NCBI GenBank assembly: GCA_021234155.1
Contig: JAJEKV010000016.1
Coordinates: 19,293,616 to 19,357,615 of the forward strand
From: Isoetes taiwanensis
Taxonomy: Eukaryota > Streptophyta > Lycopodiopsida > Isoetales > Isoetaceae
Direction: 5' to 3'
Length of the DNA: 64,000 bases
The position numbers and the translations under genes were made by a program. The notes beneath the pieces are model-generated. The model saw only the letters and a program-made list of their open reading frames with translations. It ran no database searches and was not told where the DNA came from. Positions 17,267-49,655 of the stretch are shown here, one piece after another (the stretch's first letter is position 1; every line of letters begins with the position of its first letter).

Positions 17267-18700
17267 CTCCAAAACCAAATATTCAAAGGACAAAACCAAT
17301 AACCTTGAGCTGAAGTCCAACTTCAGCTTGATTGTTTTAGGCTCTGGTTCTGATAATCACGCCTCTTACCATGACTTTGATAATGATATGGATTAGAACC
17401 ATGATTTTGATAACGGAATGGATTAGGTTTGCACGAAAGTGCATTTTTTTACACTATAAAGGACCTTGAAACGATCTTTGGTTGAATAGATATTTTGGTT
17501 GAATAGATGCTGGATATGGTAAAGCTTCCTGTGTAAATATAAGAAATAAGATAGCCAAAAAAGAAGAAGGTGAAATCAATAGAAGCATGCTCACAAAAAG
17601 CATTGCAGAAACAAAATTGTGATGCTGGCATTCTGCTGCATAGAGTTGCATCTGTATATGATCTTCCAAAAACATGGTGTGCAACCTAAAACCTCCCTTC
17701 CGTGGAAATGCTTTCCATGATCTTTCAAGAACGTGGTTCAAGAATATGGTTTGCAATCTGTTCTCTAGAAAAATACTCTCGGCGTGATGCTTAAGGCGCA
17801 AGAAGGATGCTGCAGGAGCTCTTAGTTTGTTGAAAGTTACGGATGAGATCATACAATCCCTAAGAAATAAACGCTTCAAATCAACTCTAAAAGTCCATGT
17901 TGCATACTTGAATGGTCCACATTAGAATATAAAGAGAGTAATTATAGAAAAATATGGTCCATTTTTCTGCGAGCCACTATCTGGTCCATTATTGGTAGAC
18001 CCCCAAAGACCATCGAAGCTGCTAAGCCCATTTTTTTCACCATAGAGAAAAATATGGTTGTCGTATATCTTTACGACAGTATTTGCGACTGCCACATTGG
18101 ATTTGTGGTATCTCTTATGCAGAGCACTTCCCCACTGCTACAAATAAGACATGTCGCATTCCAATCGTGGAGCATGATTTGAGGCAGAATGAAGGAAGCA
18201 AAGTGGTTTTGATTGATGAAAGAAGCATGTCTTATTTTATGGTGGCGGATTTCCCCCCGAAGAAAATAAGACAGCTCTGTCGTACGGCAGCCTCATGAGA
18301 CTCTTAAAGTTAGTCTTGGAAAAATGATTTTGGTTTAAGATCTTATGTGGCCATGATCCATTTGCTAAAATATAAGACTTGCAACTTGTGGAAAAGGGCC
18401 CGAGCCCGGGATTCTCGTAAGGGCCACTGAATTTGAATTGAATTAACTTTATCCTGCCTATGGAGATTATAATGGCCCTATGAGACCTAATACAAAAAAA
18501 AGAGAGCACAACAAGGCCATTACTATCAAGGATTAAAACCCTACTGTAGAAGCATGAAAGGGTAAAAAGTGCCCGTGATTTTTACATTTACAAATTCAAA
18601 ATGTAAGGAAATCCCTCCCCCCGTAAATTATTATTCTTGAATGAATCATTAATAAAATAATTTTGAACTCTCCTCCCAAGGCTGCTCAACCTTCCTCCCG
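17267..18700. other. Stretch without assigned gene; possible plus-strand exon trace
   Basis: A 141-residue minus-strand frame (17454-17879) lies opposite plus-strand text that also reads acceptably (for example KDAAGALSLLKVTDEIIQSL near 17810-17870). Neither is recognised. Short local duplications are present, such as TGGTTGAATAGAT twice near 17481-17508. No further feature is supported. Confidence 0.35.
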
Positions 18701-18701
18701 C

Positions 18702-18848
18702 CAACCTCCATAGCCGAAAAGCTTGACATCCATATTCAACCTCCATAGCCGAAAAGCTTGACATCCATATTCAACCTCCATAGCCAAAAGCTTGACATCC
18801 ATATTCAACCTCCATAGCCAAGATCAGACCTCCATAGCCAAAAGCTTG
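18702..18848. repeat. 34-35-bp minisatellite, four full units plus a partial one
   Basis: Units begin at 18702, 18737, 18772 and 18806, each starting CAACCTCCATAGCC and containing AAAAGCTTGACATCC then ATATT. A fifth, partly deleted unit ends near 18848. The first two units are identical as far as can be read. The array lies directly upstream of the first coding segment of the Ulp1-like gene and may sit in its leader or promoter. Confidence 0.9.
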
Positions 18849-20219
18849 CATTTTCGTGAGAGCTCAAGCACTGTGGAAGAGATCATGACGAAAACAGCTT
18901 GGAACAAAGACATTCCAAGGAAATCTCCTCGCAACAAACCTCAGAAGCCCATGCCAAGGTCTCCCACTAGAACCGGCCACCAAAAACTCAAGAGTGGGTC
19001 TTCTTCAGATCGGGAGGTCTTGCCACCGAAGTTTGACAAGGTAAGCATCAGCAGCTTTAGGAGCAACAATTTTGATAGCATGTTTCCGTGGCTAGTGCAA
19101 ATAGTGTAGGATGTTTGGGGTTCAAGCCCCTCGCGTTAGGGGTTATCAAGAGTGCAGATTAAGCCGGGTTGGATGGCGATTTTTTCCTGTGTATGAGCAC
19201 GCTTTTTGTAGGAGGGACATTGCAAATCATCACATTCCATTGTATTTTGCCCGAGCATATGCACTTCATTACAAAGGAGTAAGCATTGATTGGGATGAGG
19301 TGAAAGCAAGTGCAAGTCTTCATTCAAAAGGCTCTCAAAAAGAATCTGGACCTCGACGTAATTAGCTACAAAGAAAGTCTTCCAATGTTAAAGCTATTAA
19401 ATGTATGCCTCGTAGAATTGGGGCAGCAGTTGGAAATGATGAAAAGGTGGAGGGAAACAAGAGCATTAGATTCTCCCTTCCATGCTTGATGAAATACGTG
19501 ACTTTAAAAGAGAAAAGGAAAACAATGGAAATTGAACTGCTGAAGCATGAGAGTGATAAGAGCTTTTGACAAGACTTGTGCAGAGTAAAGATGCAAAAAT
19601 ATGTGAGCAGCTCAAGATTATGGCAGTTTTAAAAAGCAAGCTGAAGCCAACTGATGTGCAAATGGCTTTGGCATCCCATTTAGAGGAGGAGAAATCAAGT
19701 TATATTGTCGACTTAGATGCTCTAATGATTCCCATTGATTGTTTAAAGGCTGATTTGCAAGAATTAGAAGTCGCCATTGAAAAATCAGCAAGGATTTGGA
19801 AGTTAATTCCAACCGTGAGAATAGAATAAAGGAGATGACTAAGCATTTGGAAAGATCAGACCCGATAGGGTTCCCAGCCCGCCCCCATACTCGCAAAGAA
19901 GACTGAGCGCCATTCATTCACATATAAGCAATACTTGCAAAAGAAAATGCAATGATTGCCTTGACTCTCGACCATGGTAATATCTCCACTTTGTGGTCAT
20001 ACATATTGTCTATTTTGTCTTATATTCGTGGTTTCAACGACGAAATACATGTGTACATGATTGTTCATGGTCCGAGGACCTCATGCGACATTGCTTAGGA
20101 ATCCCTTCCAAGGTACATCTATTTCTATTTTGATTACATAATTAGTTTGAGTGTACTTAGATGTAGTTAGTTTCCATCATGTACATAACTCAGATTAACA
20201 TTTGATTTGGCGTGGTTTT

Positions 20220-20500
20220 GTCTTTTTACCGTAAAGAGGAAATGTATTTGCTTCAGATTTTACATTTTACATGTGCCATGAAGTGCTTTTCCGAATTCCT
20301 TTACAGTGGTGTATTAATAGGGTGTATTGCATTGATCGCATTTTGCATTTACATGTGATCGAAATGCATATGAATTTGGTATTTGACTTTCCTTTACATT
20401 CAATGCCGAATGATGTATTTGATAGGGTGTATTGATAAAATATTTTGTTCAAAATACATTTGAATTTAGTATTTGGTTTTCCTTTACATTGTGATAGCTA
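20220..20500. repeat. Degenerate repeats in a presumed intron
   Basis: A phrase of the type GAATTTRGTATTTGRYTTTC then CTTTACATT recurs around 20370-20401 and 20460-20490, with related CCTTTACA-containing text near 20300. GGGTGTATTG occurs three times nearby. The block lies between coding pieces of the Ulp1-like gene and looks like decayed tandem sequence within an intron. Confidence 0.5.
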
Positions 20501-21548
20501 TGTACACTAATGTACTTCTATTTTGTCGCTACATTATCGCCAGAAAGTTTGCCTCAGAGTAAAACCTACTTGCATGTAATTAACATTTGTTCTCGCTTTT
20601 GATTTGCATCCGATTGTTTTTTTCTTCAGATTTTGCTTCTATCTACTCTACATCTCCCCTTGATTCTCAATCAAGTGTTTACATTTTTATTGACACCCAA
20701 TTGTGTCAATGCATATGGGTAGTATCAAGAAAGGAAGAAGTAAAACCGCAGTAAACTAAACAATTCATGTTTCGTGCACTATGCTTAAGTTCAATATAGC
20801 AAAATTTCATGTTGTAGGTGAAAAGAAGAATGTTATTGAGAAGGGGTTGCATTTACCATTCTCGTGACATCCCAATTGCTTTAACCCCGCACAAAAGATG
20901 CCGCCGCTATCGATGTTGGAAGTCCATCCACATCTACATCACCTTTGAGAATTGCAACAACTCATAAGCAATCGCAAGGATTTGGAGACAGAGGGGTATG
21001 TGGAAGGTAGGGTGATTACATTCTGATTACATTAAGATTGCATCCGTTGTAGTTAGAGTTCACTAATGTTCAATATTTTGCACCAGAGGTTGTTTTCCAA
21101 AAAGAGATCCCACCTCAGAAGCCGAAGCCGCTATTATTGAGCAACTAGTCCGAAAGCCCGTAAAGTAATTCTCTCCTTTCGTGGTTTCTTTTTTTTTTGT
21201 ATTTTGAAACTTACGCTGACGCATTTACGATAAAATTATCAAGATGTTGGTGACGACATTGAAAAACAAATCCTGAACCGCCGCTTTTTCAAGTTGAGGA
21301 AAAGGCTTGTTCTTTGGCGTGCACGTGTTTTTTTTTTGTCTTGCTTTCAAAACATTAGAATGAAGCACTTTCTTGTCTTCGTGAGACTTGGCGACGATTC
21401 AAAGGAGCTAGATGATGTTGAAGAAGCCTTGAGATTGCAGCCAAGGCAACGACTAAATTTATGGTCAAAGCCGATGCCAAAACAAATTGAAAAAAGAGAG
21501 TGCAAACCTGTAAAAGACATCCACCGCAAAACGGTAATTGCTAGCTTA

Positions 21549-21812
21549 CATTGACTTACTTATACTTCAAGAGTTTATTATATTTTACTCGCTTTGCAGG
21601 TCTAAACCAATCGGAAACAGAGATTGGAAGGTATCAATTTATGCTTTATTGTCATGGATCAATTGTTAATATGACACTAACATTGACTTACTTATACTTC
21701 AAAAGAGTTTATTATATTCTACTCGCTTTGCGTGTCTAAACCATCGGAAACAGAGATTGAAGGTATCAATTTATGCTTTATTGTCATGGATCAATTGTTA
21801 ATATGACACTAA
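21549..21812 (+). repeat. 132-bp tandem duplication containing a small exon
   Basis: Two copies, 21549-21680 and 21681-21812, are nearly identical. Each spans a pyrimidine-rich 3' splice region (CTCGCTTTGC) followed by a short exon-like piece (GTCTAAACC then ATCGGAAACAGAGATTG) and the next AT-rich part. The first copy keeps the acceptor AG (CTTTGCAG at 21592-21599). The second reads CTTTGCGT and has lost it. The duplication sits within the Ulp1-like gene. Confidence 0.85.
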
Positions 21813-23141
21813 CATCTTGATCCGGACAAATGTAAATGATGACAAGGATAAACTTATGGAATTCACGCCATTCACGCCATTCAAGAACCGTCCGGGCTGA
21901 AATGAAAGTGGTTGCATCCGACATAGCAATTTTATGTGCAACTAACTCTAAAATGAGTAGCCGCTTAGTGGATCTTTATGGCGTAAATAACCCGGGTTGT
22001 AACCGAAATGTATTTGTTGCTATTCCTTGTCTCTAATGTTAATCTTAATCTAATCCAGTGTGCTTGTATGAGACATTGCCTTTCGAAAGTGGAAGAGCAA
22101 AATCTTTTTTTATCCCCGCTTACAACTATATAAGGTTTAGAGAAGCTACCAAAGAAGAAAAGAAAGGGTGAATCACCAAGGATCACCAAATGTCATTGAA
22201 ATAGTGAAATCGTGGATGAAGGGGATTGTGGTAGCTAAATGCCATCATATCCTTGCACCTATCCTTGAGAATGACCATTTTGTGCCGGGCCGCTTTACGC
22301 CGCACTATCTCGATTCCAAGATCCTACCGCACTGTGAATTCACGCCTTGAATCCTCTTACAAAAGTTATGCGACGAACGAGAAAGCAATCAAAGGGTATG
22401 TAATACTTTTAAGTTGTTGCTTTGCTTTTCTTCGCTAATTCGGTCCGCTAAATTTCGTGATATGTAGGTCGCACACACAAATGTTAACCACATCGACGGC
22501 CAAGTATCTAGAGGCCCGATTTCATGAAGAGAAATAATGTTAATCGGATTCAAGAAGTAGAGGTGCCACAAAGAGTCCGATTTAACATCATGTGGGTTGT
22601 ATGTGATGGGATTTATGCACAAATATGTTGAAGCTCTTGTCTCCGTAGAGATATGGAAGTAAGTTGTATGCCTTCCCTTGTATGTACCGTGATCTCATGT
22701 TCCTTTAAATATTTCTAACCTTATTTATGGATGTCACAGACATTACATCTAAATGGTTCTCTCATGAATACCGCCACGTAATGACATTTTACAAATTTCT
22801 AATAGATGCTTTGGTCATGCATTGTGATGCCAATCCGAAAGAACGACGCCAAAGAAATTCTCCTGATTTCCGAAATGATCATGAGTCCGAGTATCCGATT
22901 TTGCAAGATGAACTATGTAACAGCTTATATATATCTTTTGTTCACATTTGTGTTCACATTTCCTATCATAAGGAATGTGTAAATGACACTATGCTCAATA
23001 GTATACTACCGATAGTATACTTTTATGACTATGTAAGTTTTTTTTTGAAGAAAAAAAGATTTCTTTTAAAGAAGCCTTGTAATTCTTTTTGGTCAATCAA
23101 AACAAGCATTTGATTGTTTCGACCGATATATTTTTTGTGAC

Positions 23142-23697
23142 CTTTTACCACACACCACACCCCACAACACCACACCACAACACCACACACCCACCACACC
23201 CCACCACACCACCACACCACCACACCACCACACACATTGACACACACCACCACCACCCCCACACACCACCACCACACCACACCACCACCACACATCACAC
23301 CACCACCACCACCACACTCCACACCACCGCCTCCACACCCACCATTTGGTGTATGGTGTATGGTGTGTGGTGAATGGTGTGGTGTGTGGTGGGGGAGGTG
23401 GTGAATGGTGTGGTGTGTGGTGGGATGTGCCTGCTCGTGAATATGATAGTTGGTGTATGGTCTATGGTGTGGTGAATGGTGTGGTGTGTGGTGGGGTGTG
23501 GTGGGAATGGTGTGGTGTGTGGTGGGATGTGCCTGCTCCGTGAATATGATAGTTGGTGTATGGTCTATGGTGTATGGTGTGTGGTGAATGGTGTGGTGTG
23601 TGGGTGGGGTGTGTGGTGAATGGTGTGGTGTGTGGTGGGATGTGCCTGCTCGTGAATATGATAGTGTGGGGCATGGTATGGTGCATGGTTTGGTGGG
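23142..23697. repeat. AC-rich/GT-rich opposed low-complexity block (potential foldback)
   Basis: About 200 bases made almost only of CACCACACC-type sequence (23142-23345) are followed at once by about 350 bases of GTGGTGTGTGG/GGTGTATGG-type sequence (23346-23697). The two halves are roughly reverse-complementary and could fold into a very long hairpin. In the GT half a phrase GATGTGCCTGCTC(C)GTGAAT then ATGATAG occurs three times (about 23424, 23526, 23640), giving a higher-order spacing of about 102-114 bases. Long open frames here, including a 256-codon minus-strand one with His/Thr/Pro runs, are by-products of the low complexity. Confidence 0.9.
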
Positions 23698-24234
23698 TAT
23701 ACACACCCTAACAAATTTAGTGTTCATTTCATGCATGGTATTGTTCAAGAGGTTTCGACCAACATCCGTAAATTTTGGCGATGCTTCGAGATGCTTCAAG
23801 ATGCATTTAAAGAAAAATACTCAACATATTTTCCTATTGGTCCGGGTTACCATATTTTGTTAGTGTGCGATCATAAATTCCTGCGACCTTGAAATTCCTT
23901 TGTTGGCTTTAATGTTTGTTTTGGTATACTATTTCAAGAATTGTACTTTTGCATTTTATAATTAATGACAAAAACTCATTATTAACTTGAGTTGCACCAA
24001 AAACTTGAGTTGCAAACTAAGTACCAAACATGTTTCTTATATCTATACGTAAAAGGATAGAAATAGTTCAATTAACTAAAAGAACAAAGGGGAAAACTCG
24101 AGAACAAAATTAAAGCAAAAAAAAAAAAAAGTCACAACAAATTGAGAGAAGAGGAGTTCTCACATTAATGAAAAAGCTTTACAAAAATGGAGTCACAAGG
24201 ACTATTGCAAAACAAGTATTGAATTAAAAAAGTT
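23698..24234. other. AT-rich stretch without gene
   Basis: After the foldback block there is short plus-strand text (23700-23860) that could extend the Ulp1-gene region but has no recognisable motif. AT-rich DNA follows, including a 13-A run near 24120. Nothing else is supported. Confidence 0.4.
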
Positions 24235-24831
24235 TTACAAAGAATAGTCACAAGGACTATTACCAAAAAAATTGAAACCGTGGATTACAAAAACAAGGCT
24301 TGATCTTCGTGCCATCTTCAAATTTATATGAAGGTCGCCCTCCATGGCATACATCTTCATTTCGAGGAGTCGCCTCCTCGCGAGGTAAGCCTCATGCACC
24401 CACTGATCACCCGCAACGGCTTTACAGCCCCGATGATCCATGATGAGCTTCTCCACCTCCGGGTGGAGTGAACTTCGACCGATCAGAATCGAACCTGAGG
24501 AAGACACGATTCTCTCCTGAGGAAGACACCTGATCCTCCTGAGGAAGAGGAGGACCGTGGCCGGGGGGGAGGAGCAGCACAATGGCCGGATAGTGTTCCC
24601 CGCGAGTGTGGTCTTGAACTTGGCCATGGCGAAGTGAAGGAGATGGACTAATGGGGAAGGAGGAAGGAGATGGCTGAATAGACGATGGGGATCTGAATGA
24701 AGAAAGCAGGGCGTAATTTTGGGAATAAAAGGGATGTTTGCATGCATAATGATTTTGTTTTGGGAATTAGGCGTAAGAGGAAAGGGATGTATCCATGCAT
24801 ACGATTTCACACCCTGAGCCGATCCACCCAC
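24235..24831 (-). CDS. Unrecognised open reading frame
   Basis: One uninterrupted 198-codon frame is unusual in this decayed window. From an internal Met (MAKFKTTLAGNTIRPLCCSS, near 24627) it reads as a compact basic protein with an Arg/Leu-rich middle and a segment HPEVEKLIMDHRGCKAVAGD, giving about 130 residues. The first ~65 codons are Pro/His/Phe-rich and look like translated leader. GC content is higher than in the flanks. No family is recognised. It may be a recently captured gene fragment or a non-coding GC-rich island that happens to be open. Confidence 0.3.
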   Translation of the reverse strand: MGGSAQGVKSYAWIHPFPLTPNSQNKIIMHANIPFIPKITPCFLHSDPHRLFSHLLPPSPLVHLLHFAMAKFKTTLAGNTIRPLCCSSPPATVLLFLRRIRCLPQERIVSSSGSILIGRSSLHPEVEKLIMDHRGCKAVAGDQWVHEAYLARRRLLEMKMYAMEGDLHINLKMARRSSLVFVIHGFNFFGNSPCDYSL

Positions 24832-25265
24832 CTCAATATTTTTGCAAATGTAAAATGTATAGGTTGAACCATATTATGAGACCAATTGCTTGGTATGCGC
24901 TAGCACAACCCTAACACAAAGTTAGCAATATCCCACATGCATATATCACAAAAAATCGCGCGATATATAAATAGGGTTTTGTCGCTTATTGATAAGTGTG
25001 GATAGAGATTAGATGTTGAAAAGTTATGGCTCACCGGGCTTGTAATCTTCGCCATGTGCCATCGGTCATAACCGGCCCAAGATGTAATCCTAGTCCACCC
25101 TTTTTTTAGTAATGGGCTCAAATATCCCACATGCATTCAATGTTCCACATGTTACCAAATCAACAATTGCCAAATCAACAAATGCCAAATGAATGGATTA
25201 TGTTAAGGCATATTGTGTACCTATGCATATTGTGTTTGGTAAAGCTTCAACAATATAGAGATAAC

Positions 25266-25578
25266 AAGGAATATTCCTTATTACCTTGAAAGGAATATTC
25301 CTTATTGCATTGAAAGGAATATTCCTTTAGCTTAGTTATCGAATATTCCTTATTACCTTCAAAGGAATATTCTTTAGTTTGTTTAAGTGCACCCATAGTT
25401 ACAAGGAATATTCCTTTATTATTTTGAAAGGAATATTCCTTTTGCATTGAAAGGAATATTCCTTAGTGCCTAGTTATCAAGAATATTCCTTATTACCTTC
25501 AAAGGAATATTCTTTAGTTTGTTTAAGTGCACCCATAGTTACAAGGAATATTCCTTATTACATTGAAAGGAATATTCC
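25266..25578. repeat. Array of the palindrome AAGGAATATTCCTT, 12 copies
   Basis: Perfect 14-base palindromes lie at 25266-25279, 25290-25303, 25314-25327, 25403-25416, 25428-25441, 25451-25464 and 25543-25556. Slightly altered or truncated copies lie at 25341-25351, 25362-25375, 25479-25491, 25502-25515 and 25567-25578. Close-set copies are spaced 21-25 bases apart. The block from about 25336 to 25412, including a copy-free spacer GTTTAAGTGCACCCATAGTT, recurs exactly 140 bases later (25474-25552), so there is a higher-order repeat. Each palindrome can form a cruciform arm or a two-fold symmetric protein site. The 66-codon minus-strand frame across it is a by-product. Confidence 0.95.
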
Positions 25579-27080
25579 ACATTGAGTATAGCCCTTTCAT
25601 TTGAGCTAGGCTTGTGGGATATATGCCAAAGATCAACCATTGGCCAATTGGGTCGAAAAAGAGGACAAAGGGGATAGATTTTGAGAAAAGGATGTTGAAC
25701 AAATCATTGGCACAAATCATTGGTTAAGGAACAAATCATTGGCATGGTACGAGCCATATCGTAAAATCAGGGGAGAAGGGAATAGACAGGATAAAAATTC
25801 CTTTTTACCCGTGGGTGACCGGGTTGATTCCGGCGGGTGGAGGAGATCGAACGACTAGATCACAATCCATATCCCCAATTCAAATGCAAACTCACCGGGC
25901 GCACCCGATTCTTGAGGAGATCAATGCCGAACAGGGAAACCAATTGAACAAAATCAAACGGAGAGGCAAATAACGAAGTTCGAGGTACTCCTATTCTTAA
26001 ACATGCTTTTGTTCCTAATCTAACAATTGCTTATGATGTTCTACACATGATGCACAGAGGAGACTTAACAATGTTGGAAGCATGGATCGAAAGCTATGGG
26101 AGTAGCAAATGACAAGGGGGGATGAGGAATCCCAATTATCTAAAAGCGTAACTAGAGAGTATTCTCATTCAACTTAAACAGAAGTTGTGCATGCAAAAGC
26201 AATCAACAAAGTGCTGAAAAGGGCCGAGGTTTGGAGATTCAATAGCCTCAAACCATACTTTTACCAATCTCTATCATAAATGGCAAATGTAAGTTTAGAA
26301 GCACATGTCTTGCTTCCGTTAGACTTCACCAACTTCCAAACAAATGCCCCGACACTCTTCTCACAATTTTCGAACAGACCATTGCTGATCTCACACCGCA
26401 CCAGACCTTCCGATGAATCTTGAGTCTTGAATCTTGAATCTTGAGACCTTCTCACAAGTTGTTTTTACAACTTACACTAAGTATAACAGCCTTTGGAACT
26501 ATATAAACAATATATTAATGTTTGTGTTTTAACTGTTCACATTCTCGACATATTCAGCTTTGTAAGTCCATGCCTTAGTGCATAGAAAAGTTACTTCAAC
26601 AACAAAGTTAACGACACATAGATTCTACAATCTCCGCAAATTTCCCAAAGAACATTTCATGCCAATAGTTAGTCGGGCTCATATGCATAAGATGTACCTT
26701 TTAATCTTATGTTTGATCGGGTCCAATGGAAATCTCACCCCACCATCGACTCGATGGACAAGAACTTTCTTTCCTTGAATAAGCCCTCAGACTTTTGATG
26801 GCAAACTGTGAATCAATTCAAAGTAGTTACCAGCTATAACTTCATTACCACAATAAAATTCATTTCCATAGTCATCCTTGGTGTCTTCTTCGAGGGCATG
26901 TTTCACTTCTCAGCAATCGATGAGATAATAAGGGACCCTTTCATAATTGTCCGGGATGTGAATGATGCAAAATAATCTCCAACCTCGCACCGCCTCATCC
27001 ACATTGTCCACGCCATTTGCCCACAAGTCCTCCTCTCACTGCACTCCATCTTCTTCAACATTGTCCCCGCTTGTAGGCTC
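25579..27080. other. Stretch without supported gene
   Basis: No domain is recognised. A short (ATCTTGA)n-like run lies near 26410-26445. The minus-strand frame 26261-26455 crosses it and may be the extreme C-terminus of the transposase relic to the right, but this is weak. Confidence 0.35.
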
Positions 27081-27084
27081 TAGT

Positions 27085-28213
27085 TTTCAACTCCCACCTA
27101 CCACAATGATCAGCATTCTCACAAGCAGCCAATCAAAATTGATGCATGCCTTACAAAAACATGAAAGAGATCTACACATTAACTTTGTTGGATCATTTGA
27201 TCTATGGATGATACGCAATGAAGAGATTGCACCCCTTTCACCGAGCACATCAAATCTTTGGGAACGGCCAATGTCGACACCTTCCAAAAATACCCTTTCC
27301 ACATCAGAAATTTTCTTCAAGAACCTCACATGCGCCGTGATTTTTTATCACTTTCCCATCCTTTTTTCTTTTGTTCTCACCGAGCCATAGTTTGGCTATG
27401 GCTCCTTCTCCGCCATGTGTGCCCTTTCCCATGTCCCGAGCCAAAGAAATTCCAAAGCATTCTCGATCTTATGCTCTTGATGATACCTAGTTACATGATA
27501 GAAAGCTCTTTTCTCGACTTGAATTGGGTCAACACAACCTGGCCGACCAAACTAAGTGGTATTTCATATGACCAAAGACCATTTTCTTTCAGCCAATTGA
27601 GGTGCATCTTGAATGCTTTTTGTACAAAGTGAGTATCATGTGTTTTGTCATCCTAAATAAAGAAGTGCACACATTTCCTCATTTTACCCTCGTACTTTGA
27701 ACATCGTGGATGTGGACCAATATGTCTGATTTGTTCATTGTACCAATGTTGTGCTTGAATCTCGCTGAATGGCTTCAAAGTATAATTCTCCGAGAAATCA
27801 ACAACCGATAATACGGTATCATCAATGAAGACTCTTCATGGATTCCTTGAATTGTTTGTTCGCCAATGTGCCACAAAGTTATGATATACAAACTTCGACA
27901 TATGATCAAACATGTTATCCAACATATTACCGAGTCGCCTTTTCTTGTCAATTAGCTTTAGTCTTCGTGGAAGTTCCTTTCTTCGAGGGCTCATTAACGT
28001 AACCATAGACTTGCCAATCAAGCGCTTGATCAATCTCGCCCTTGTATTCTCTTGACACAACTCAATTAATTGTTTCCCACAATTTCCACAATCTGATTTG
28101 ATACATTGTAGCTTATGCCACTCGCTGCCCGGCCGCTCCTCACACACATACCATAGCCCTCCAAAATGTGCTAACATTATCAAATGTCTTGTCCTTGGCT
28201 TGACATATTCCAA
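27085..28213 (-). pseudogene. DDE-like transposase relic
   Basis: The minus strand reads almost continuously, with only a TGA near 27839 and a TAG near 27655 in the central part. Motifs in order are a Cys pair region (CIKSDCGNC, about 28085-28110) and a helical basic part ending in KFVYHNFVAHWRTN. Next comes VVDFSENYTLKPFSEIQAQH (about 27748-27810), whose Asp-Phe-x-Glu-Asn-Tyr is a likely catalytic Asp block. VVLTQFKSRKE (about 27505-27535) and a HGKG...GEGAIAK block (about 27385-27435) follow. The C-terminal zinc-binding-like tail is CRSLSCFCKACINFDW (about 27130-27180). This order (DF.ENY, QFKS, HGKG.xDG, CxC..C) is one I recall from transposase-like proteins usually annotated only as hypothetical in animals and some plants; I cannot name the superfamily with certainty. 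Frameshifts after 27535 make it non-functional. Confidence 0.65.
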
Positions 28214-28980
28214 AGATGAGCTTCAGACATGCGCACACACCACAATTACATGAACAATTTTCATGGAGTCTTGACCTCATCAAATTAAATGCCTCGCTTG
28301 TACAGATCTGATTGCTCATGTTTCACGCAACAACATGTGTTTCTTTCCTTTAGCTTTCTAATGCAAGAAGGTTTTAAGTATTCAAATTGCCTAAGCCCAA
28401 TCCAACCTCTCGATACCGATCCACAAAATTGAATAATTCAAATTGCAGAAATTAGTGAAATAAAATTAGTCACCTCATTACATTACATTACATACAAATC
28501 TTTTACATATTCAAGACCCTAAACTCCCACACATACATGTACATTCTCGACATGAATTTTATTTCATTTACTATGAAGTCACATAATTTTTGACACAATT
28601 AATACATCTCCACACTAATTTCTTCTTAGTTACCCACATCTACAATACATCCGTAATATACATGTAAACAAATATACATCCGTAATATACATGTAAACAA
28701 ATATACATGTAATGTGTTGCCATGAAATAATTTGACATTTCCATGTAGAACAACTAGGGCGTGATCGCATCTACATTACATTCAAAAAGTAAAGAAATCT
28801 GTTACAAACTTTACATCAAGCAGTTACAAAATAAAAGACATCTTTATTCTCGCCAAAAGTAAAGAAATCTACAAACTTTACATCAAGTGTTACAAAATAA
28901 AAAACATCTTTATTCTGAAAACAAGATGCAATTACATAAAATAAATTACAAATGCATTCGTAATGTCAATATATTGAATT
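28214..28980. repeat. AT-rich stretch with two small tandem duplications
   Basis: A 31-bp unit (CATCCGTAATATACATGTAA then ACAAATATA) is repeated at about 28648-28710. A ~60-bp unit (AAAGAAATCT..ACAAACTTTAC then ATCAAG..GTTACAAAATAAAA) is repeated at about 28791-28850 and 28858-28917. (ATTAC)n occurs near 28478-28493. The block separates the transposase core from possible N-terminal coding pieces. Confidence 0.7.
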
Positions 28981-28989
28981 GGTTGTGTC

Positions 28990-29700
28990 CTCTTCTTCAT
29001 GACATCTCTAATTTTTGTGAAACCTTTGAGTTATCTAACCAAAACCGAAAGCAACCATATCCTTCATAGCCCCGATCTATCGTATTTGTTCTTGTTTCTT
29101 GCCCACGATTTGTTCCACCTAGTGACATTCTTTTCCTTCTCTCCACCGCTAGTTTCATATTTCTAGGATGTATTTTCAAAGAACTTAGTCGCTAGTGAAG
29201 TCTTCTCAGAATTCTCCTTCCTCTCCAACCACCATAGATAGTACGTAATGCTTTGCACAAAGCAAGTCCGCTATTGCTATTTGCATTTTTGACGCCTTGA
29301 GGCCATCCTTTAAATTCTTTTACCGACCTGTTTTCACGATAGCCTCTTGAGGCCTTCCAATGACCGGCTCAAATAGGAATTGCAATCTTTTGTCCCCGCA
29401 ATAATCTTCTTGCAAATATACTTTGTCGCTTTTGGAGTCAAATTAGATACCTCATTCATTATGAGATTTTACGTAAGCATTCACCTTTCTTCTAATTGGC
29501 TTTGTCAATGTGATCCACCCCTACAAACCCTCTCGCTTCGATTTTCTTTGCCTCGCTTGTAACAAAAGCTTTCCTAAACTTCATCAACAGAGGATTGAAA
29601 TCGAACCCGATGTCGACCTCGGCGTTTGCATGAGAGTCCAATCCTTCTTCCATAGTTTCTTCTTCAACCGGTGCTTTAAGACATCGATCCATTCTCAAGT
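28990..29700 (-). pseudogene. Possible N-terminal pieces of the transposase relic
   Basis: Minus-strand text reads like protein in two places. One is an acidic N-terminal-like segment (DSHANAEVDIGFDFNPLLMK near 29570-29640). The other is a run containing KEFKGWPQGVKNANSNSG and GLALCKALRTIYGGWRGRR (about 29220-29320), continuing into a basic Arg/Thr-rich segment to 28997. Orientation and position fit the upstream part of the transposase at 27.1-28.2 kb. The link is inferred from placement only, and no family motif was identified here. Confidence 0.3.
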
Positions 29701-31000
29701 AAAAAGGGATACAACATCCCGCACAAAAAATCGATTATTAACCGTGATTTGTATTATCGCTTGAAGGGATTTGTATTACGCTTGAAGGAAAGGGATTTCA
29801 ATTTCTTCAAGATACATTTGTTTTTGAAATGCATTCGATTTAGGAGCAGCTATAATCGATTCGCCAAGTTTTCGAGGTAGAATCCGAGCCATGTTTGATC
29901 GATTGAGGAAAGTTCAAAATGTGCGCCAAAGTTTTTTTTTTTTCGCAGTGCAAGATATTTAGATTTTATTGATAGAGAAGCTAGTACAAGATTTCGAGGA
30001 TTTGTATAATTATGGAGAATATTGTACGCCAACCGCCTTTATTAATGATAGGCAACTCCATGTAAAATTCAAAATGTACATTACAAACACTTTAACCCGG
30101 GGCCTAAATTTTTACATCAATATACAAAAAAATTACATCCGAACATATCAATATGTGAGAAGATCTATGATAACTATATACTTTATTGTTTATTACCCGG
30201 TAGAAACCGACATAAGAATTTCATGTTATTTATGAGTTTCTATGATGTTGAAGAATAGACATGAGTCAACAGAAGACACAAGTAGAACCACTTGGATGAT
30301 AAAGCATATATATAGCAAAGGGAAAGTTATTCAAATACCCTTACTTTTTCAAGTATTTTCCATACTGCCCTTCATATTTTCTAAATTCCAAAAACGCCTC
30401 TTTTTTTTTTGTGACCATCACGATTCTCTGGATTCTCATCAAACCTTTCCGATTCTTATCAAACCTCTGATTCCTATTTCGACCATGTGAAGATAATGTC
30501 TGCCAGATCATCTTCTTGTTTGGCATCCACGTCAGTCCCAAAGGGTATGTCTGTTAGTTATGGTCATAAGCCATATAAGGACCAAACATAAACTAATTCT
30601 CTGATTTGCAGTAAGAGCTATGGAAAGAGTTATTCCTATCTACAGATAAATACATCTAGATATTTCTTTATGGCATCAGAGTAGGGAAGTGATGGAAAAG
30701 CAAATGCAGCAGTAAAAGAAATTGCTTAAATCACTCATGGTTCAACAAGTAATAGCCAGATTAAATTAGAGAATTTGAAGCAGAAACAGAGTACAGACAT
30801 ACTCACAAATCAGTATTTTGGAGGTTACCATTCTGGTGAGAGAAGAAGCAGGTATTTGTTCCAAGTATTTTGCAGATTCATTAATTCAGAGTTTACTCAA
30901 GGAATTAAGATAGAGGCAGTTCCTAGAGACATGTGATAGGAAAATTCATGGAAGAAACTTGCATACCTGGCAAGTGCAGATTAAATTTCACTTGATTAAG
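29701..31000. other. AT-rich stretch without gene
   Basis: Contains a 12-T run at about 29933-29944 and short ATTCT/TCAAACC repeats near 30420-30480 that resemble the neighbouring AGATTCT block. No coding region or recognisable element is seen. Confidence 0.4.
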
Positions 31001-37205: not shown

Positions 37206-38746
37206 TGGTGACGGCCCTAACCTCCCATAATGATGCCCCGGCCAGATACAACCGGAGATCATCCCTCAAACCAGCAGATCTACTCACGACATGAGGTCGT
37301 CCACCTAACATCGCCCTTGCCGGTGGCTGAAGAACCCGACCCGGGGAAGAATGGACGTGTCATTCATCCCGCCTCCCCTGATCGATCTAGTCATGAAGCG
37401 TAAACACACATGAGCACATGATATCAATCAACAATAACATACCCACCTCAAGGGTGGTCCACCATATCATAGTAGCCGCATCAACACATCAAGACATCAA
37501 CATAACATGGGGGAAATCCTACCCGTGCTCGACTCTTTGGGATAGACCCATTCGCCATTGGGTCTCGGATAACAATGTAGACGTAATTCATGGCAAATGG
37601 ATTTTACCGCATAGAAACATGGTTGTTGGGTAGTCCACTCCATCCGCCTCTCCCGTGCATATTACTTTAGGGTCGGTCAAAGTATTGAGCCCCACCAGAA
37701 TCCCCACGTTCACAGAGCCAAAGGGGCTACTACTGGGTTGCATCTCCCAGATCCCGATGAGGCAGGAGGGAGATCACTACCTCCAGAAGGTTCATGCCAA
37801 TCACAGGCGAGCTAGAGAGCCACCGCCGTATACGACTTTTGAACCCCTAGAAGATGACGATCACCCAAGAGGTGTCGAGCCCATACCCGCCTCACGCAGC
37901 CGCCGTATTAGGCCCAGCCCACAATGTTCCCTACTGTCGCACGCACTGAGGGATCAACCGCGATCGACAAGCCCCTTCCTTATCACCGGTCTAGCTCCTC
38001 ACACCCACCTGCATCTGCTCTTATATATCGTGCCGCATTAATTGGGAATTAATGGCTAAAACTAAGATCATACAACTACTTAGGCCCGGTCTCTACCCCT
38101 TCCAATAAATACACAAGAGTAGCTTATAGAATGTCAAAACATCATTACAACAGAATGAAAAATAATAGAATACATCTATTCTAATCTACCTAATCATACA
38201 TGGTTAGGTTCCTTTGTTAGTGTCTATTATTCTTAGGTCAGAGGGGTCGCCTATAGCTAAGAATGAATGCGAATCCTATAGAATGAGAGTTGAAAACTGA
38301 TCTAATCATCTATCAAACCACTAACCCGCTTCTTAGGCCATGCCTCCACTCCTCCCAAAGCCGCCCATGTCGGATCTCGAGACCGGCGGTCTTGGATCGA
38401 GCTGCAACCTAGCACCCGTTCCTCCTCGCTCGTCAATGCCTGTAAGCCGCCCAATGCCGCCTCCAACTGACTTATAGGGGCTGGGAAACCGAAGGGTTTT
38501 TTTTAGGTTTATGTCCCTTTATCCCCACGAATTTAGGGTTATCCCTTTGGTACGGGCCATTGCCACATGGCAAAAGGATAATATATTCACATGCGTGGCC
38601 TTAACATGTGCAATATAATGGTTCACGTGGTCGCATCTCCTAGGTACTACCCTTTATGGTCAAGGTACATGTCGCCCGAGTCGAGTGTACTAGTGACGGT
38701 CGTAATAATATACGATTCATACCATATATTATTCTCGAACGCCACA
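37206..38746 (-). repeat. 3' LTR (left copy)
   Basis: Ends TG...CA on the minus strand within uncertainty of a few bases. It shares long blocks with 40280-41802, for example GTGGTCCACCATATCATAGT at about 37457 and 40519, and the region near AATACATCTATTCTAATCTA at about 38169 and 41218. The open frame at 37655-38041 lies wholly inside the LTR and has no independent support. Confidence 0.85.
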
Positions 38747-40279: not shown

Positions 40280-41802
40280 TCAGGACGGCCGTCTCCCATA
40301 ATGCATGCCCCGCCAGATACAAACTAGAGATCATCCTCAAAACCAAAGATCTACCGCCAGCACATGAGGCTGCCCACCTAACATCGGCCCTTTGGCTGGT
40401 GGCCAAGAACCCGACGGGGAAGAATGGACGTGTTATTCATCCCGCTTCCTGATCGATCTAGTCAAGCAAACACACATGAGCATGACATCAATCAATAATA
40501 ACATACCCACTCGAAGGGTGGTCCACCATATCATAGTAGCTGCATCAAATACATCAGTACATCAACAACATGGGGAACTTACCTGTGCTCGCACTCTGGG
40601 GAAAGACCGACTACTGTCTTCCTGACAACAATGCAGCATGTATTTAATTTATGGCAAAATGGATTTGGTCATAGAAACATGGTTGTTGGGTAGTCCACTC
40701 CATCCGCCTTCGTATATGTATACTTTTGCGATAGCTGAAAAGTATTGAGCTCCCACCGTGAGCCCTGGCTGGCTCAGAGCCAAAGGGGCTACTTACCGGG
40801 TTGCATCTCCTTAGATCCCGATGAGGAGGAGATCACTCCCTCCGTAAGGTTCATGCCAATCACGCATTTGAGCTAGAGAGCCACCGTCAGATAATGACTC
40901 TGAACCCCTAGAAGATGACGATCACCCAAGAGGTGTCGGAGCCCATACCCGGCCTCACGCAGCGCTGTGGCATTAGGCCTAGCCCACAATGTTCTCCGCC
41001 GTCACACGCACTGTGGGGGATCAATCGTGATCGGATTAAGCCCTTCCTTACCAAAATTTGCCTAGCTCCTACCACTTATGCATGTGCCGCATTAATTGGG
41101 AATTAATGCCAAAAACTATGATCATACAACTACTTGGGCTCGGGGTCTCTACCCCTTCCCAATACACAAGAGTAGCGATAGAATGTCAAACATCATCACA
41201 AATAACTGAAAATAATAGAATACATCTATTCTAATCTATCTAATCATACATGGTTAGGTTCCTTTGTTAGTGTCTATATTCTAGGGGTAGGGGCTGCTTT
41301 AGCTAAGAAATGAATGCTTAATCCCATAGAATGAGAGTTGAAAACTCCTGATCTAACCATCTGATCAACCACTAACCCGCTTCTTGGTCCCACCTCCTCT
41401 CCGAAAGGCCCATGCCACTGGATCTCGATCGGGCTGGGTCTTGATCGAAATGCAACCTAGCAATTCCTGTTCCTCTCGCCATCGCTCAGGCTAAAAGGCG
41501 CCCAATGCTGCTTCCATCCGACCTATAGGGGGTCGGAAACCCAAAGGGTTTCTTTTAGGGTTTATGTCCCTTTATCCCCACGAATTTGTGGTCGGGTCCC
41601 TTTGGCAATGGGCCATTGCCACATGGTAAAAGGATATTATATTCACATGTGGCCTTAACATGTGCAATATAATGGTTCATGGTGGTCGCACTTAGGTACT
41701 ACCCCTTTATGGTCGCGCAGTACATGTCGCCCGAAGTCGACAGTACTAGTGACGGTCGTATAATACAATGATTCATACCGTGATATTATTCGAACGGCCA
41801 CA
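40280..41802 (-). repeat. 5' LTR (right copy)
   Basis: Partner of the left LTR, immediately followed on the minus strand by the tRNA-Met-like primer binding site at 40268-40279. It is slightly shorter than the left copy through scattered small indels. Confidence 0.85.
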
Positions 41803-44391: not shown

Positions 44392-45749
44392 TTAACAGTC
44401 CTTAATATAGCCAATAGTAGCATGTGCTATGTTTGTATGTGAGGAAGACCTCACGTTCATGAAATGGCCTTTGTGTCCAATCTGGTAGCCTTTTGAAAAG
44501 AAAGGCCAACTGATATAAGTGGATACAATACTGTTGAAGGTGCATGCCCTAGGAGCATATTCATCACAAATCATTTGCAGCCGAATTGTTTCTAGCGGCG
44601 AAGCGCCCCCCATTATTAGACCTGTCATAGCCCCTGGTAATGCAATCAGTCCTACAGTTTTAGTGCTATCCAAAAATAGAGCCAAAGCACAACCAAAGAT
44701 CTCTCACTTGGTTTTTAGATGCTTGTCTTGGTGTTGCCCTCTAAAGCTAAAGCAGCTTCAATCTGAAAATTAGAAATTTAGTTACTTAAGTGATTCATTG
44801 AATAGATCAAACATAATGAATAGATCAAAACATAAATTTAACTAGTTTCTTAGGAACAAGTTTCTTTTTTATGTATGATTTAGAAGGAATACCAGATGCT
44901 GCTGAGCCTTTATATCCCTCTCTAATCTCTTTTAGAGTCACTCCAGTTACTGTCATGGTGCTACAAACCATCATTCCAGTTATAGGAATGACATACCGCG
45001 GGCGTAAGAGAAAACTTTCAGATAAGAAGTAGGAACAAAGTAATGGCCGTTCCACAAAATATTGAAATTCTGCTATATATATGCCCCTTTGGCATTCCCT
45101 TTGTTTCTCTGTCCTGCTGTATATCCTGCTACCAGAACCTAAAAACAAACCTTTATTCTATTAGCTTTGTATTATAAACCGATTCCATACTTCAAGCAAG
45201 AATTATCCACTTCATATAACTTGTTTTCACCCTATAAGAGGACTATGTCCTATAAACATACCCTAAAACAAGAATCGGCCAAAACTACCAAATGAAAACA
45301 ATATTTCAGATGATCTTCAGTGACAATCAGATTAGCCACTGGTTTTGCACACGATCTTTATTTTCGATCTAGAGCTCTTTCATTGAAACAAGGCCTAACA
45401 TCACATGTTGCTTGCTTACTTACCATAAATATATAATCTGCAAATATCCAGGTCACGTTCTTCTGCTTAAATATAAACTCCAGGACAAATCCGATGATTG
45501 GGGAGCTGAATAAAGGCTCTAGCTATGGAATAAAGCATGTCCTTCCCAGATCCAGTTTGAACAAAATGACATAATCACAGCAAATCCACCACAATAGGCA
45601 AGTGCGGGCAATAGGTTGATCATTCCTTTTAGAAAATCCTCCCATTCAGCCGCTGTAAAAAAGACCCTGTTCCATGGCTTCAAGATATCGAAGAAATATG
45701 GCACCTGCTTGTTTAATTTCTCATTCCTGAGAAAGAATACAGAAAGCAC
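44392..45749 (-). pseudogene. ALS3-like UPF0014/FetB permease, left copy
   Basis: Minus-strand exons match the plant ALUMINUM SENSITIVE 3 family, the membrane half of a half-size ABC transporter linked to aluminium tolerance. The first exon, ~45675 to 45424, reads AAEWEDFLKGMIN then, after a frameshift, AFIQL and IIGFVLEFIFKQKNVTWIF, ending at a GTAAGT donor. The likely start ATG is at 45675-45673, out of frame by one base in a T run. Exon 2 starts at 45138 after TTTTTAG. It reads VLVAGYTAGQ, later RPRYVIPITGMMV and MTVTGVTLKEIRE. Its donor is unclear. Exon 3 starts at 44762 after TTTTCAG, reads IEAALALEG, then, past a stop and frameshift, LFLDSTKTVGLIALPGAMTG and LIMGGASPLETIRLQ, and ends about 44392. 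Membrane segments are hydrophobic as expected. Several frame breaks suggest a pseudogene, or a gene with sequencing indels. Confidence 0.85.
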
Positions 45750-47661
45750 TTACAAGAGAAAAGCAAAACAGATTCTTTTGAAACTGAATAAAGAGTAAAA
45801 CCGCTTCAAGATCAGATCAAGACACGCTTCTGAGACTAATTATGAGAACTGAACCCACTTGAAGAACAGGCTTTTTCAGAAAATTCCTCCCTCTGGAAGA
45901 CGGCCTGCCCCACTTTAATCCTAAATCTAAAGTTGCACTCCTTTTAGGGCTGTAAATCTGATCATACGACTGAACAATATTATATGGTATATCAGGGCAT
46001 CGATCGAATCGAACTTGCTTCTTCTTGATTAAAAATAATCGCCGCTAACTTGTAATATGGCATGTTTTTTTTTTTTTTAATACGAAATATTCTTTTCTTG
46101 GTGGTTTGTGTGTTTTTCCACTCGTCTATTATTTTTCGCCATTTTTAAAACTCGGTGGGTAGTAACTACTTTTTTAAGCTTTCCAGTATTACTGCAGGTT
46201 TAAGCAAAAGACTTCAGGTTTAAGGCAAAAGATTGCAAGATTTACTTTGCTGATTGGCTCCATCCATCCATCCGTCCATCCATCTCTATCTATCTATTGT
46301 GTGCAATGAAATAAAATGAAATATATTAATCATTATACAAAGGATGCATGGGTCCAATCCAGCTGTCGCATCACGTCCAAAAGTTTTACCACACGTTCTG
46401 CAAATTTTACCTGCCATTCTGTAAGTTTTAATTGCCATTTTGCAAATTTTAATCATTCCAGGTTTCTTTTTAATTTTGATTTGTTTTGTGGCAATACACG
46501 TACACGATCTGGATTGGCCTAACCGTCCTTCTACGTTGAGAAAGGCCCTGTGGGTCTTTTCCTAGAAGCGTCAAGCAGGCGCTGCGCCGGCCAGCTTTCC
46601 TTCCGAAAAGGCAGCCCCGTTTTCACAAGGTCCTTCCCTTTATACATCCAAGCATCTTTATTTATCAAACACCGTCATGTTTGAACTAGCTCTAAAATCA
46701 AAAATCCCAGTGTACTTTAGTGTAATCCGGGAAGGTGTTTTCCCTTCGCAATAAAACTGGCTTAAACACAAAACCATGTGTATTTTCCTTGGTTCAAACA
46801 TTACCGTGGTTGATAAATTCAGACGTCTGAATCACAAATGTTTTTTTTTATCAATGGTGGAGTTCAACTTTTCAATTCCATACGATACGATGTTGCGTGC
46901 CCAGATTCTTTTTTTTGCCTTTTGGCTACTTTTGCAAAACCTTTGTTTGTACATTTCTAGGCTTTTAAACCTTTTGTCCTTTTCTTAAAAATATTATTCG
47001 GTAATGGATTTTTATTTTATTTTTGTTGGAATTGAGTAATTAAGGGCCCAAATTTTAAAGTCGAGAAAGATAACCTTTCCACATTCCCATTCCCACAATC
47101 ATCATAACACTAGGCTTAATATAGCACATATTAGTCAATTGAGTTGACAACCTACTTGCAGGCATAGTTGCCTATATGGAAAATTCCATATGTACTATGA
47201 GCTGAATTTAAGCAAGACAACAAGCGCAAAATAGCTTTACCCTTATTAAGATGTTTTTTTTCGATACATTCGTGAAGGCATTTCCGCCCAGCAGAATCAC
47301 AACAAAAAATTCGCTTCATGGACGCACTTCCCAGTACCCAATAAGTCTTGAGTAAGTTAGTCACCACGCATTTTGGGGTAAAATTTTGCCCTATTGCAAC
47401 TCATCTATCTAATTCAACATGCTTTGATCCTAGCTTTGTCACATTTGCACATTCGATCCGGGCCATTCCAATCACTATGAAAGTGATCCAAAACGATTTA
47501 GATCTATATCGAGGAAAAATCTCCACTCAAAAAGTTTAGGCAAAACCCTTAAAGGGGGCATGCCAATCATTTTGATTGAAAAATATGGCGCTTATCTTTT
47601 GTGATTTCTCGTGAGAATGTACATCTTCTGCAAAAGGTAATTACCACATTAAGAGAGAAGT
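45750..47661. other. Upstream flank of the left ALS3-like copy
   Basis: Non-coding DNA between the ALS3-like exons and the LINE, duplicated at about 51190-52997. It includes (CCATC)n/(CTAT)n simple sequence at 46259-46302 (duplicated at about 51726-51760), and a block of TTTGCAAATTTTAAT-type repeats near 46395-46460. A promoter for the minus-strand gene would lie here, but no convincing TATA or initiator can be fixed. A GTAAGT-like donor near 45755 and a TTTCTCAG acceptor at about 45735 suggest an additional 5' exon or leader intron. Confidence 0.5.
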
Positions 47662-49655
47662 TTTTTTTTTTTTGACGCACGAATTATGGCATGATTTCAA
47701 GGGAGGCCCACCAAACCTCATTCCCCAGGATTTATGCCCAAGAGAAAAACTTTATCTCGGTAGAGGCCCGCAAAAGGGTGTTCAAACCTCTACATCCGTG
47801 AGCCAGCAAATCAAATAAAACCAATGCCTGCAATATTGAATGCCCACTTCTGAAGGAAGGTCATCCGCCCCCAAGAGAATTTGGTCAGATGAAGAGCCGT
47901 GAAGGGAGATGCAAGAGAGATCACCGCAGTGAAAACAATGCTCAACCGATTCTGTGCTTTGCGCATTGGACACGAGGACCGACATTTGCCTTGAAGGAGT
48001 GAACTCCTCAATATTTAGTCTCCAGAAATGCTTTATGCAATAACTGGGTTAACTAGCCATTGCTTTGGTATAACATTCTTGTTCCACACTCTAGACCAAA
48101 CCAAGGTGTGTTTTGGTTTCAAACTCCTTGTTGCCATTGTGGTGAAGGAGAAAGAGGAGGGTGCAAATGTGAGATGTCTATGCCATAGGCCCCGAACAAT
48201 TTGCTTTCCTAAGGCATATCCACTGGGATTGTCCACACACGCCATTCATCCGTAAAGGATGCAAGGGAATATTTATGGCGTGATCTTTCCTTATGTAGTA
48301 ACTGATCGTGAATCAATCCATGTTCTAAAACTCCCCCGCACGAGCGGTATAAGGCCCATTGAATACCAAAACCTCAAAGTGACTATGCTCCAGAGAATGC
48401 CACCGCGACCGAAGTCTTAGGGTGGATCGTGGAGGATAAACGAAATAAGCCAGTGGAATTAAGGCAGGCAAATACACGTAAAGGGAGAAGAGATTTGAGA
48501 TCAATTTCGAGGGTGCAATGTAAGCAATGAGCTGACATCTTTCCAAGCTTTGAGAACTCTATGAAGGAAAGTATAACGAGAGATGGTTTGTTCGATAGGA
48601 GAGAGGACAAGGGAAGACTTACCGGTAATACAAGACTCAAAATATGTAAGATCAAAGCCCTCCTGATAACCGTGATAAAGCTACAAGACTACACAGCCCG
48701 ATCGTAGAGAAATTCTCCATATGAACTTTGAGATTACTAAGTTGCTATGGAGCAAAGAAGTCCATCATACAAAGACCATAATTGACCTCTTAGGAGCAAA
48801 CAAACACTTCTTCCAAGGTAACCCTGGATCTGTTGTTCAAATTTTATTAGCACCCCAAACAGCTTTTATTACCGCCATTATGTATAGTGGGTACGTGGAG
48901 TCTTTGTACTTTGAGACTGAACCAACAAAGTAGAAGTGATGTAGACATGAGTGTTATTTAAAACAAAACTTGCAGGACCTCGCATGCCCCAAACAAAGAG
49001 AGCTTATGCCTCACCACCAAAGCGTATGCCCTCAAGGCCTAAGATAACATGATCCCAAGCCTAATGATCGGCCCATCTCTATACCAATTGGTACACCTGT
49101 GAGTCTAGTGACAAGATAATGACAAGCCACATGGATAGGCTTTGAATTCTACGCCTGGAGGAGGTCCAATGCCCATATGGCACCGCACACTTGCTAGTTC
49201 AACAAACATCCCCGATGCCAAGGAAAAGATGATCTAAGAGTCGCTTATCAAAATTCTCTTTTAGATGCTTCCCAAAGAGAAGAAAAATATAATCTATGAA
49301 CCTATCAAGAAGACAATCTAAGAGCCATCCGCCACGCCCAAGCCTTGTACAAAGGAGTCATTCATCGCATTAATCGGAGAAGCTAAGAGAGGCCTTCTAC
49401 AATAGTAGTGAAAAGAACGCCTGAGGAAGATTTCCGCCAACACCTCTCCCAACAAAGAATATGTCCGTGGTCTGACCTCGATATAACAATGTTGTTCTTA
49501 GCTAACCCTCAACAAATTTCCATATCGCTTCGCTTCCAATCAGCACGAAGGTCCAAAAGACATTTTCGTAGGGCTTTGGAAAATCCAACCTTTGGGCACA
49601 CCACATAATGATCAATATGTCACCTAATGCATACCTTCTACATGTTGTTGCTTAC
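47662..49655 (-). mobile_element. L1-type LINE, 3' half (left copy)
   Basis: The minus strand ends in a 13-A tail (the T run at 47661-47673). Going upstream it has the C-terminal domain (HCLHCTLEIDLKSLLPLRVF region, 48383-48655) and a weak active-site area near 49270-49300. Further upstream are a FxxGRG-type block near 49450 and a DFSKAYENVFWTFVLIGSEA-like reading near 49535-49590, the conserved DF-KAYD block of LINE reverse transcriptase. It breaks off at about 49655, where similarity to the right copy ends. It therefore lacks the endonuclease and ORF1. Many frameshifts are present. Confidence 0.7.

Follow-up and report, generated by a model that had tools for sequence, protein, structure and literature searches.

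The window analysed here, a 64,000-nucleotide stretch of the Isoetes taiwanensis genome, contains a copy of a DNA transposon of approximately 11.6 kb (18544–30134), and its homology to other copies extends over 18546–30134. The left terminal inverted repeat of this copy lies at 18544–18564 on the plus strand and has three mismatches to the family form, GGGTAGAAGCATGAAAGGGTG; no right terminal repeat was found in the window copy. Other copies of the element end in GGGTAGAAGCATGAAAGGGTG and CACCCTTTCATGCTTCTACCC, forming 21-bp terminal inverted repeats in which only two mismatches were seen among 546 bases (26 reads of 25 distinct ends). All eight copies for which both ends were read are flanked, as judged by eye, by a 4-bp target duplication (TGTC, ATCA, CCAA, TGCA, AAGA, TTAG, CACA and AACT), the CCAA and AACT copies having a one-base irregularity in a terminal repeat.

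The element carries two converging genes, gene 1 on the plus strand in the left half and a transposase gene on the minus strand in the right half, both of which are decayed in the window. Gene 1 was placed at 18773–22980 (limits approximate) from reading frames seen in other copies. Its N-terminus is basic, a stretch of it has, by eye, the look of a coiled coil, and its C-terminal part is similar to Ulp1/C48 peptidases (Pfam PF02902), with a match above the cut-off in the frame of copy L011 (E 4.4e-5) and one below it in that of L009 (E 0.017). The gene-1 frames tried for DUF1985 had no match, a weak negative given that they are fragments. The transposase gene spans 26594–29750, its upstream limit being approximate and set by inspection of the frames, and is 91% identical over 26594–27635 to a 348-aa open frame of the C1067 copy. 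Transposase frames of 579 and 600 aa in other copies have three candidate Asp motifs (DFSENY, SDGCAAQFKS and HGKGTHDGEG, by inspection), which we take to resemble those of Sola; Pfam gave no meaningful match for the transposase frames. Substitutions in the transposase frame of six same-family copies sum to 156/135/191 by codon position, with 6–32 frameshifts per copy, suggesting that copies of the family decay nearly neutrally. When the transposase is compared with that of another family (L107), third positions dominate (57/37/135).

From these sequences the carrier appears to be a Sola-like plant DNA transposon, and its membership of Sola is likely. In the portion of the literature available to us, Sola elements are described as having 4-bp target duplications and DDD transposases and as seemingly not common in flowering plants (PMC10741241), with records in Physcomitrella and Capsicum (PMC9033089). 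The element described here is like them in its size range, in having terminal inverted repeats and 4-bp target duplications, and in a transposase that by inspection is three-Asp-like; it differs in having a second gene with an Ulp1/C48-like end, and its transposase is likened to theirs by motifs judged by eye rather than at the level of profiles. Searches of the literature on P1BS and transposons, Sola1/Sola2, Sola target duplications, palindromic subterminal arrays, and Sola with Ulp1 returned no description of the element, although one may exist.

A middle region of approximately 3.4 kb separates the 3′ ends of the two genes and contains the palindrome array (25266–25580). This is located roughly 1 kb past the transposase stop, 4.6–6.7 kb from the element ends and some 4–6 kb from the gene starts, which were placed by inspection. 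It has twelve units of the palindrome AAGGAATATTCCTT, starting at 25266, 25290, 25314, 25338, 25362, 25403, 25428, 25451, 25478, 25502, 25543 and 25567, with start-to-start distances of 24, 24, 24, 24, 41, 25, 23, 27, 24, 41 and 24 bp. The initial annotation described twelve exact palindromes in 313 bases, ending at 25578. The number of copies stands, but five of them have one or two mismatches, in agreement with its own count of seven perfect copies, and the last unit ends at 25580. What all twelve units have exactly in common is the inner 8 bp, GAATATTC. The array also has a higher-order repeat of five units per 140 bp (TRF: 2.3 copies, 92% match), the period that had been proposed; the block said to recur 140 bases on does so exactly (25341–25416 and 25481–25556), with a length of 76 bp rather than the approximate 77 suggested.

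Allowing up to three mismatches, AAGGAATATTCCTT has 16 matches in the window against 7.1 expected and a maximum of 14 over 100 shuffles, and 12 of the 16 fall within 315 bp. The core GAATATTC is absent from the rest of the window's element and occurs once elsewhere in the window, at 42631. Two other features were seen in the middle region. An AC-rich and then GT-rich stretch at 23147–23677 forms an imperfect inverted repeat (~74–76% over 170–380 bp) that is present in other copies too. A minus-strand open reading frame beginning MAKFK (24235–24627) lies downstream of the array and was considered as a gene served by it; this candidate was rejected, since 14 copies show 176 frameshift indels against 16 in-frame ones, with no codon-position bias, and the frame is non-coding by conservation.

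Arrays of this kind are not unique to the window. A genome-wide search of the 1.66-Gb assembly for paired exact palindromes 5–30 bp apart gave 747 occurrences, with none in the backward control. The 50 forward matches listed out of the 747 fall in 20 loci, from which we estimate approximately 300 arrays (747/2.5). Each of these 20 loci belongs to the array-bearing transposon family, 18 by their flanks and two (on C129 and C54) separately. In a search with a 501-bp query around the array, the 40 places scored of 471 candidates all match the whole query or nearly so, the 39 besides the window at 95–97% identity. In two samples of copies the arrays have between 4 and 18 units, and both copy number and higher-order structure differ from one element copy to another. 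The proposal that the array is a young satellite seed is not upheld by these results, which place arrays of limited size inside a transposon, in one family at all 20 loci examined from the genome-wide search.

We next consider which parts of the unit are conserved. So that copies would not be selected by their arrays, a sample was drawn from a search with the transposase region, in which 40 of 1,016 candidates were scored; with the window and the C1067 copy set aside, 38 places remained. Arrays of at least three units are present in 30 of these 38 stretches; of the remaining eight, two were cut by the chosen coordinates beside the array and six missed the homologous region (in one, on C845, an array is nearby). 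The 30 arrays contain 334 units, among which the core is intact in 324; the 2,672 core bases have 10 changes and the 2,004 arm bases have 233. By position, the changes number 60, 9 and 41 in the left arm (A, A, G), 3, 1, 1, 0, 1, 0, 1 and 3 in the core (G, A, A, T, A, T, T, C) and 59, 15 and 49 in the right arm (C, T, T). It can be seen that the inner 8 bp is the only part of the unit that is strongly kept. Units were recognised at up to four substitutions, so that wholly lost units and indels are uncounted, and many arm changes are inherited, meaning that the 334 units are not independent. Every unit variant seen at least three times in this sample has an intact core. A second sample, of 18 loci from the pattern search and therefore biased towards intact palindrome pairs, has 167 of 181 cores intact, with one core change common to five units.

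Comparison of the units with each other and of the copies with each other gave signals of different strength. Between units of the majority array of 12 copies, differences are found at 0 of 96 core, 7 of 72 arm and 39 of 120 nearest spacer positions, so that the parts of the unit do not diverge alike as they should in an ordinary minisatellite. In an alignment of 12 copies, chosen by layout from the first 20, the counts are 4/1086 for the core, 19/790 for the arms, 39/1662 for the spacers and 118/4536 and 179/4481 for the flanks. The arms vary in this alignment as much as the spacers; for this reason a mask of the whole palindrome slid along the array gave no significant contrast (44 of 314 shifts as good). 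After insertion, core retention is 0.970, counted on units still recognisable at up to four substitutions, against a mean of 0.885 and a median of 0.958 for composition-matched flank 8-mers, and 151 of 20,000 random sets of 12 flank 8-mers are kept as well as the core. Given the absence of core differences between units on the one hand and this retention relative to matched flanks on the other, the core signal is strong between units along the spreading lineage and modest per copy. An alignment made with mafft --keeplength, in which copies of other layouts are misaligned, gave 25/2536 for the core, 58/1867 for the arms, 116/3864 for the spacers and 382/11074 and 639/10062 for the flanks. A count from 14 copies chosen by array similarity is biased and was left out of the evidence in favour of the transposase-chosen copies.

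These data bear directly on the possibility that the array is a functionless minisatellite, which arose by tandem duplication in the transposon founder, from a seed that was palindromic by chance, and was spread by transposition. Unit number and higher-order structure shift between copies as they do in any minisatellite, the transposase genes alongside decay almost neutrally, the advantage of the core after insertion over matched flank 8-mers is modest, and the whole-mask contrast is readily equalled. Against this, in the transposase-chosen sample the changes that have been inherited by many units sit in arms and spacers, and, as described below, other palindromes are clustered in some relatives of the element, in one group of which TGTACA is better kept than controls. 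The initial annotation held that an array found only here, with spacers no more diverged than palindromes, would be an ordinary minisatellite; with an estimated 300 arrays, and spacers that differ more than cores between units, neither part of that description applies. We nevertheless regard neutral origin and spread as a live alternative, if a rather doubtful one.

To place the array in a wider context, 15 stretches 3′ of transposases with 50–93% amino acid identity were examined. The two close relatives, L044 and L045 (transposase 92–93%), have GAATATTC arrays; the units of the L044 array are split by ~2 kb of other sequence. In the other 13 (transposase 50–77%), GAATATTC is absent from the 4.4–4.9 kb read. 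When the 64 6-bp palindromes were ranked by over-representation under an order-2 model, TGTACA came first in five of these 13 (L035, L037, L038, L039 and L040) and GTGCAC in two (L042 and L049), while L036, L041, L043, L046, L047 and L048 had no clear palindrome cluster. Under an order-1 model TGTACA was above expectation in all 13, and the stricter order-2 result was adopted. Over the remainder of the window TGTACA has an ordinary frequency (15 against 12.2). In L035 six copies of TGTACA at a spacing of ~11 bp lie just 3′ of the transposase, with ten more 3.9–4.3 kb away, and in L108 and L109, transposase stretches adjoining L036 and L035 respectively, TGTACA clusters flank the transposase frame on both sides. 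L042 and L049 have clusters of GTGCAC and GTTAAC between the transposase and the gene-1 end; both also have 68-bp tandem repeats, and L042 has a further one of 49 bp.

Among L035, L038 and L040, TGTACA is kept at 0.95–0.97 against 0.77–0.79 for control 6-mers. In L042 the retention of TGTACA and GTGCAC is no higher than control, and in L043, with five sites, that of TGTACA is not clearly above it (1155 of 10,000 random sets as good). Most of the TGTACA loci are close relatives (L035, L037, L038 and L040 are alike at 88–95% where aligned), which leaves few independent cases. Of the 13 array-less relatives, eight have a recognisable gene 1. A 92-aa piece of it is 52–56% identical in L041, L042, L043, L046, L047 and L049, whose transposases are 63–77% identical, and 95% identical in the close relative L045. 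For the idea that gene 1 evolves fast, this middle piece alone has a clean control within the family; the other pieces match at only 44–52% even in same-family copies (the window and L045) and, because these copies are decayed, are uninformative on rate.

A dyad of 8 bp that is kept base for base and recurs mostly 23–27 bp apart with variable spacers, in the non-coding DNA of a single family some of whose relatives have clusters of other palindromes, suggests an array of sites for a dimeric protein. Of the explanations offered in the initial annotation, multimeric dimer-binding sites appear the best supported, with the core better kept than arms and spacers and its sequence matching a published plant dimer site, although part of the probability still lies with a minisatellite. 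Our preferred reading, put forward tentatively, is that the array acts in cis as a control region within the Sola-like transposon, somewhat more likely to be read by a protein that the element itself encodes than by a host factor. Each unit would present GAATATTC as a two-fold symmetric docking site for a dimeric, sequence-specific DNA-binding protein, and the dozen sites together would make up one strong, family-specific address. Either the gene-1 product, with its Ulp1-like end, or a transposase-gene product would most likely be this reader, which by binding might keep the non-coding DNA of the element open or active, as VANC proteins do on VANDAL elements. The element and its ends, the restriction of the array to this family in the sampled loci, the conserved core and the palindrome clusters of some related families are observed; the binding, the source of the binder and its action are inferred.

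The comparison with VANDAL elements draws on those parts of two publications that were available. VANC21, encoded by VANDAL21 of Arabidopsis, binds YAGTATTAY repeats in non-coding regions; the family-specific motif forms tandem repeats that are gained and lost, the targets of VANC6 have different motifs, and conservation is higher in the transposase than in VANC (PMC5735166). The likeness to the present array (PMC5735166, PMC10398659) consists in a short motif in tandem, in non-coding DNA, confined to one family and rare at high density elsewhere, which differs between related families and whose repeats are gained and lost. Here, by contrast, the motif is an 8-bp palindrome in one cluster per element, the target duplications are 4 bp, the transposase is Sola-like, no DUF1985 protein was found in the gene-1 frames tried, and both binding and anti-silencing are putative. 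We do not claim that the element is a member of VANDAL/VANC. Together with the kept core, the confinement to one family and the other palindromes in relatives, the divergence of the 92-aa gene-1 piece, the invariant terminal repeats and the likeness to VANDAL21 argue for an element-encoded reader; the modest retention of the core after insertion, the core change common to five units in the second sample, the six of 13 relatives with no clear cluster, the small number of TGTACA lineages, the restriction of the motif to one place in this family, unlike VANDAL21, and the lack of a DUF1985 match in gene 1 argue against it. A broader proposal is that a Sola-like lineage has an anti-silencing or self-recognition code of its own, independent of VANDAL/VANC, in which family-specific arrays would be read by a protein of the element itself, perhaps the Ulp1-type product of gene 1, and the code would be rewritten between families, as TGTACA or GTGCAC in some and here as GAATATTC, which is also a host nutrient-signalling site; in this full form we consider it unlikely. 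In the literature examined, VANDAL elements of Arabidopsis are described as marking themselves by sequence-specific motif arrays. A like arrangement in another type of transposon, with different palindromes in related families of a single genome, would, if true, allow the joint evolution of motif and binding protein to be tested outside VANDAL.

The sequence of the core may also point to a reader encoded by the host. The plant phosphate-response site P1BS is GNATATNC, with positions 2 and 7 free, and GAATATTC fits it. Moreover, in the available part of one study NIGT1 dimers bind in EMSA a palindrome that is exactly GAATATTC and that overlaps the PHR1-binding sequence (PMC7660924). The array could accordingly be read as clustered sites for a host GARP dimer, either a PHR1-type activator or a NIGT1-type repressor, with the activity of the element following phosphate or nitrate status. 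Myb-CC coding exons are present in the genome, with 25 PF14379 matches over the cut-off, and all eight core positions are constrained. This constraint fits P1BS imperfectly, however, as the two free positions hardly vary in the array cores. The array lies behind both converging genes, rather than in a promoter as would be expected of a PHR1/NIGT1 element, and the minus-strand frame downstream of it is non-coding, although the array might serve a non-coding transcript. Other palindromes are abundant in some relatives. Likeness to one plant factor site or another is common among 8-bp palindromes, and the match may therefore be a coincidence. Compared with the GARP promoter sites described (PMC7660924, in part), the array has the exact sequence and the dimer site in common and differs in its twelve tandem copies inside a transposon, outside a known promoter, as a predicted site only. 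The available text of a rice phosphate-starvation paper (PMC4534844) holds nothing decisive for the array.

A transposon with clustered sites for a host regulator would, in this one respect, resemble ONSEN, an LTR retrotransposon whose activity follows heat and which has heat-shock elements in its promoter. The ONSEN sites are in the promoter, whereas those described here lie inside the element, beyond the 3′ ends of both genes. Control by a host GARP protein is in our judgement possible but doubtful, and an element-encoded reader is somewhat more likely. If PHR1 or NIGT1 were the reader, an estimated 300 clusters of nutrient-signal sites would be in the course of dispersal through the genome by a mobile element family. 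Both readings are open to a direct binding test.

A further possibility is that the array binds the transposase itself and acts as an internal enhancer of transposition. Arrays persist in elements with decayed genes, as might be expected of such accessory sites, and the terminal repeats are similarly invariant. In a deletion derivative, L056 (G000:C168:551500-553300), the leftmost 227 bp of the element run straight into window-equivalent position 25187, immediately ahead of the array. This junction was found in none of the other 39 of 40 places scored from 865 candidates, and the proposal that L056 represents a mobile short array-bearing element was dropped, the search being uninformative on that point. 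The distance of 4.6 kb or more from the array to either end also speaks against accessory sites, as does the conservation of the transposase between families while the motif differs; the idea that the array belongs with terminal or subterminal transposase sites was rejected, with GAATATTC occurring nowhere else in the window's element. We consider transposase binding very unlikely.

Finally, each of the twelve units contains GAAnnTTC, and GAA-TA-TTC units could in principle be bound by heat-shock factors. A heat-shock element consists of three alternating nGAAn units, in which the two central bases are free. The array has no third alternating GAA/TTC unit, with zero occurrences of both GAAnnTTCnnGAA and TTCnnGAAnnTTC, and the two central bases of the core are changed once in 668, making this explanation extremely improbable. 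Outside the transposon, the window also contains two large direct duplications (44608–49651 with 50163–54837, and 37222–38746 with 40293–41802), pieces of which are 78–82% identical.
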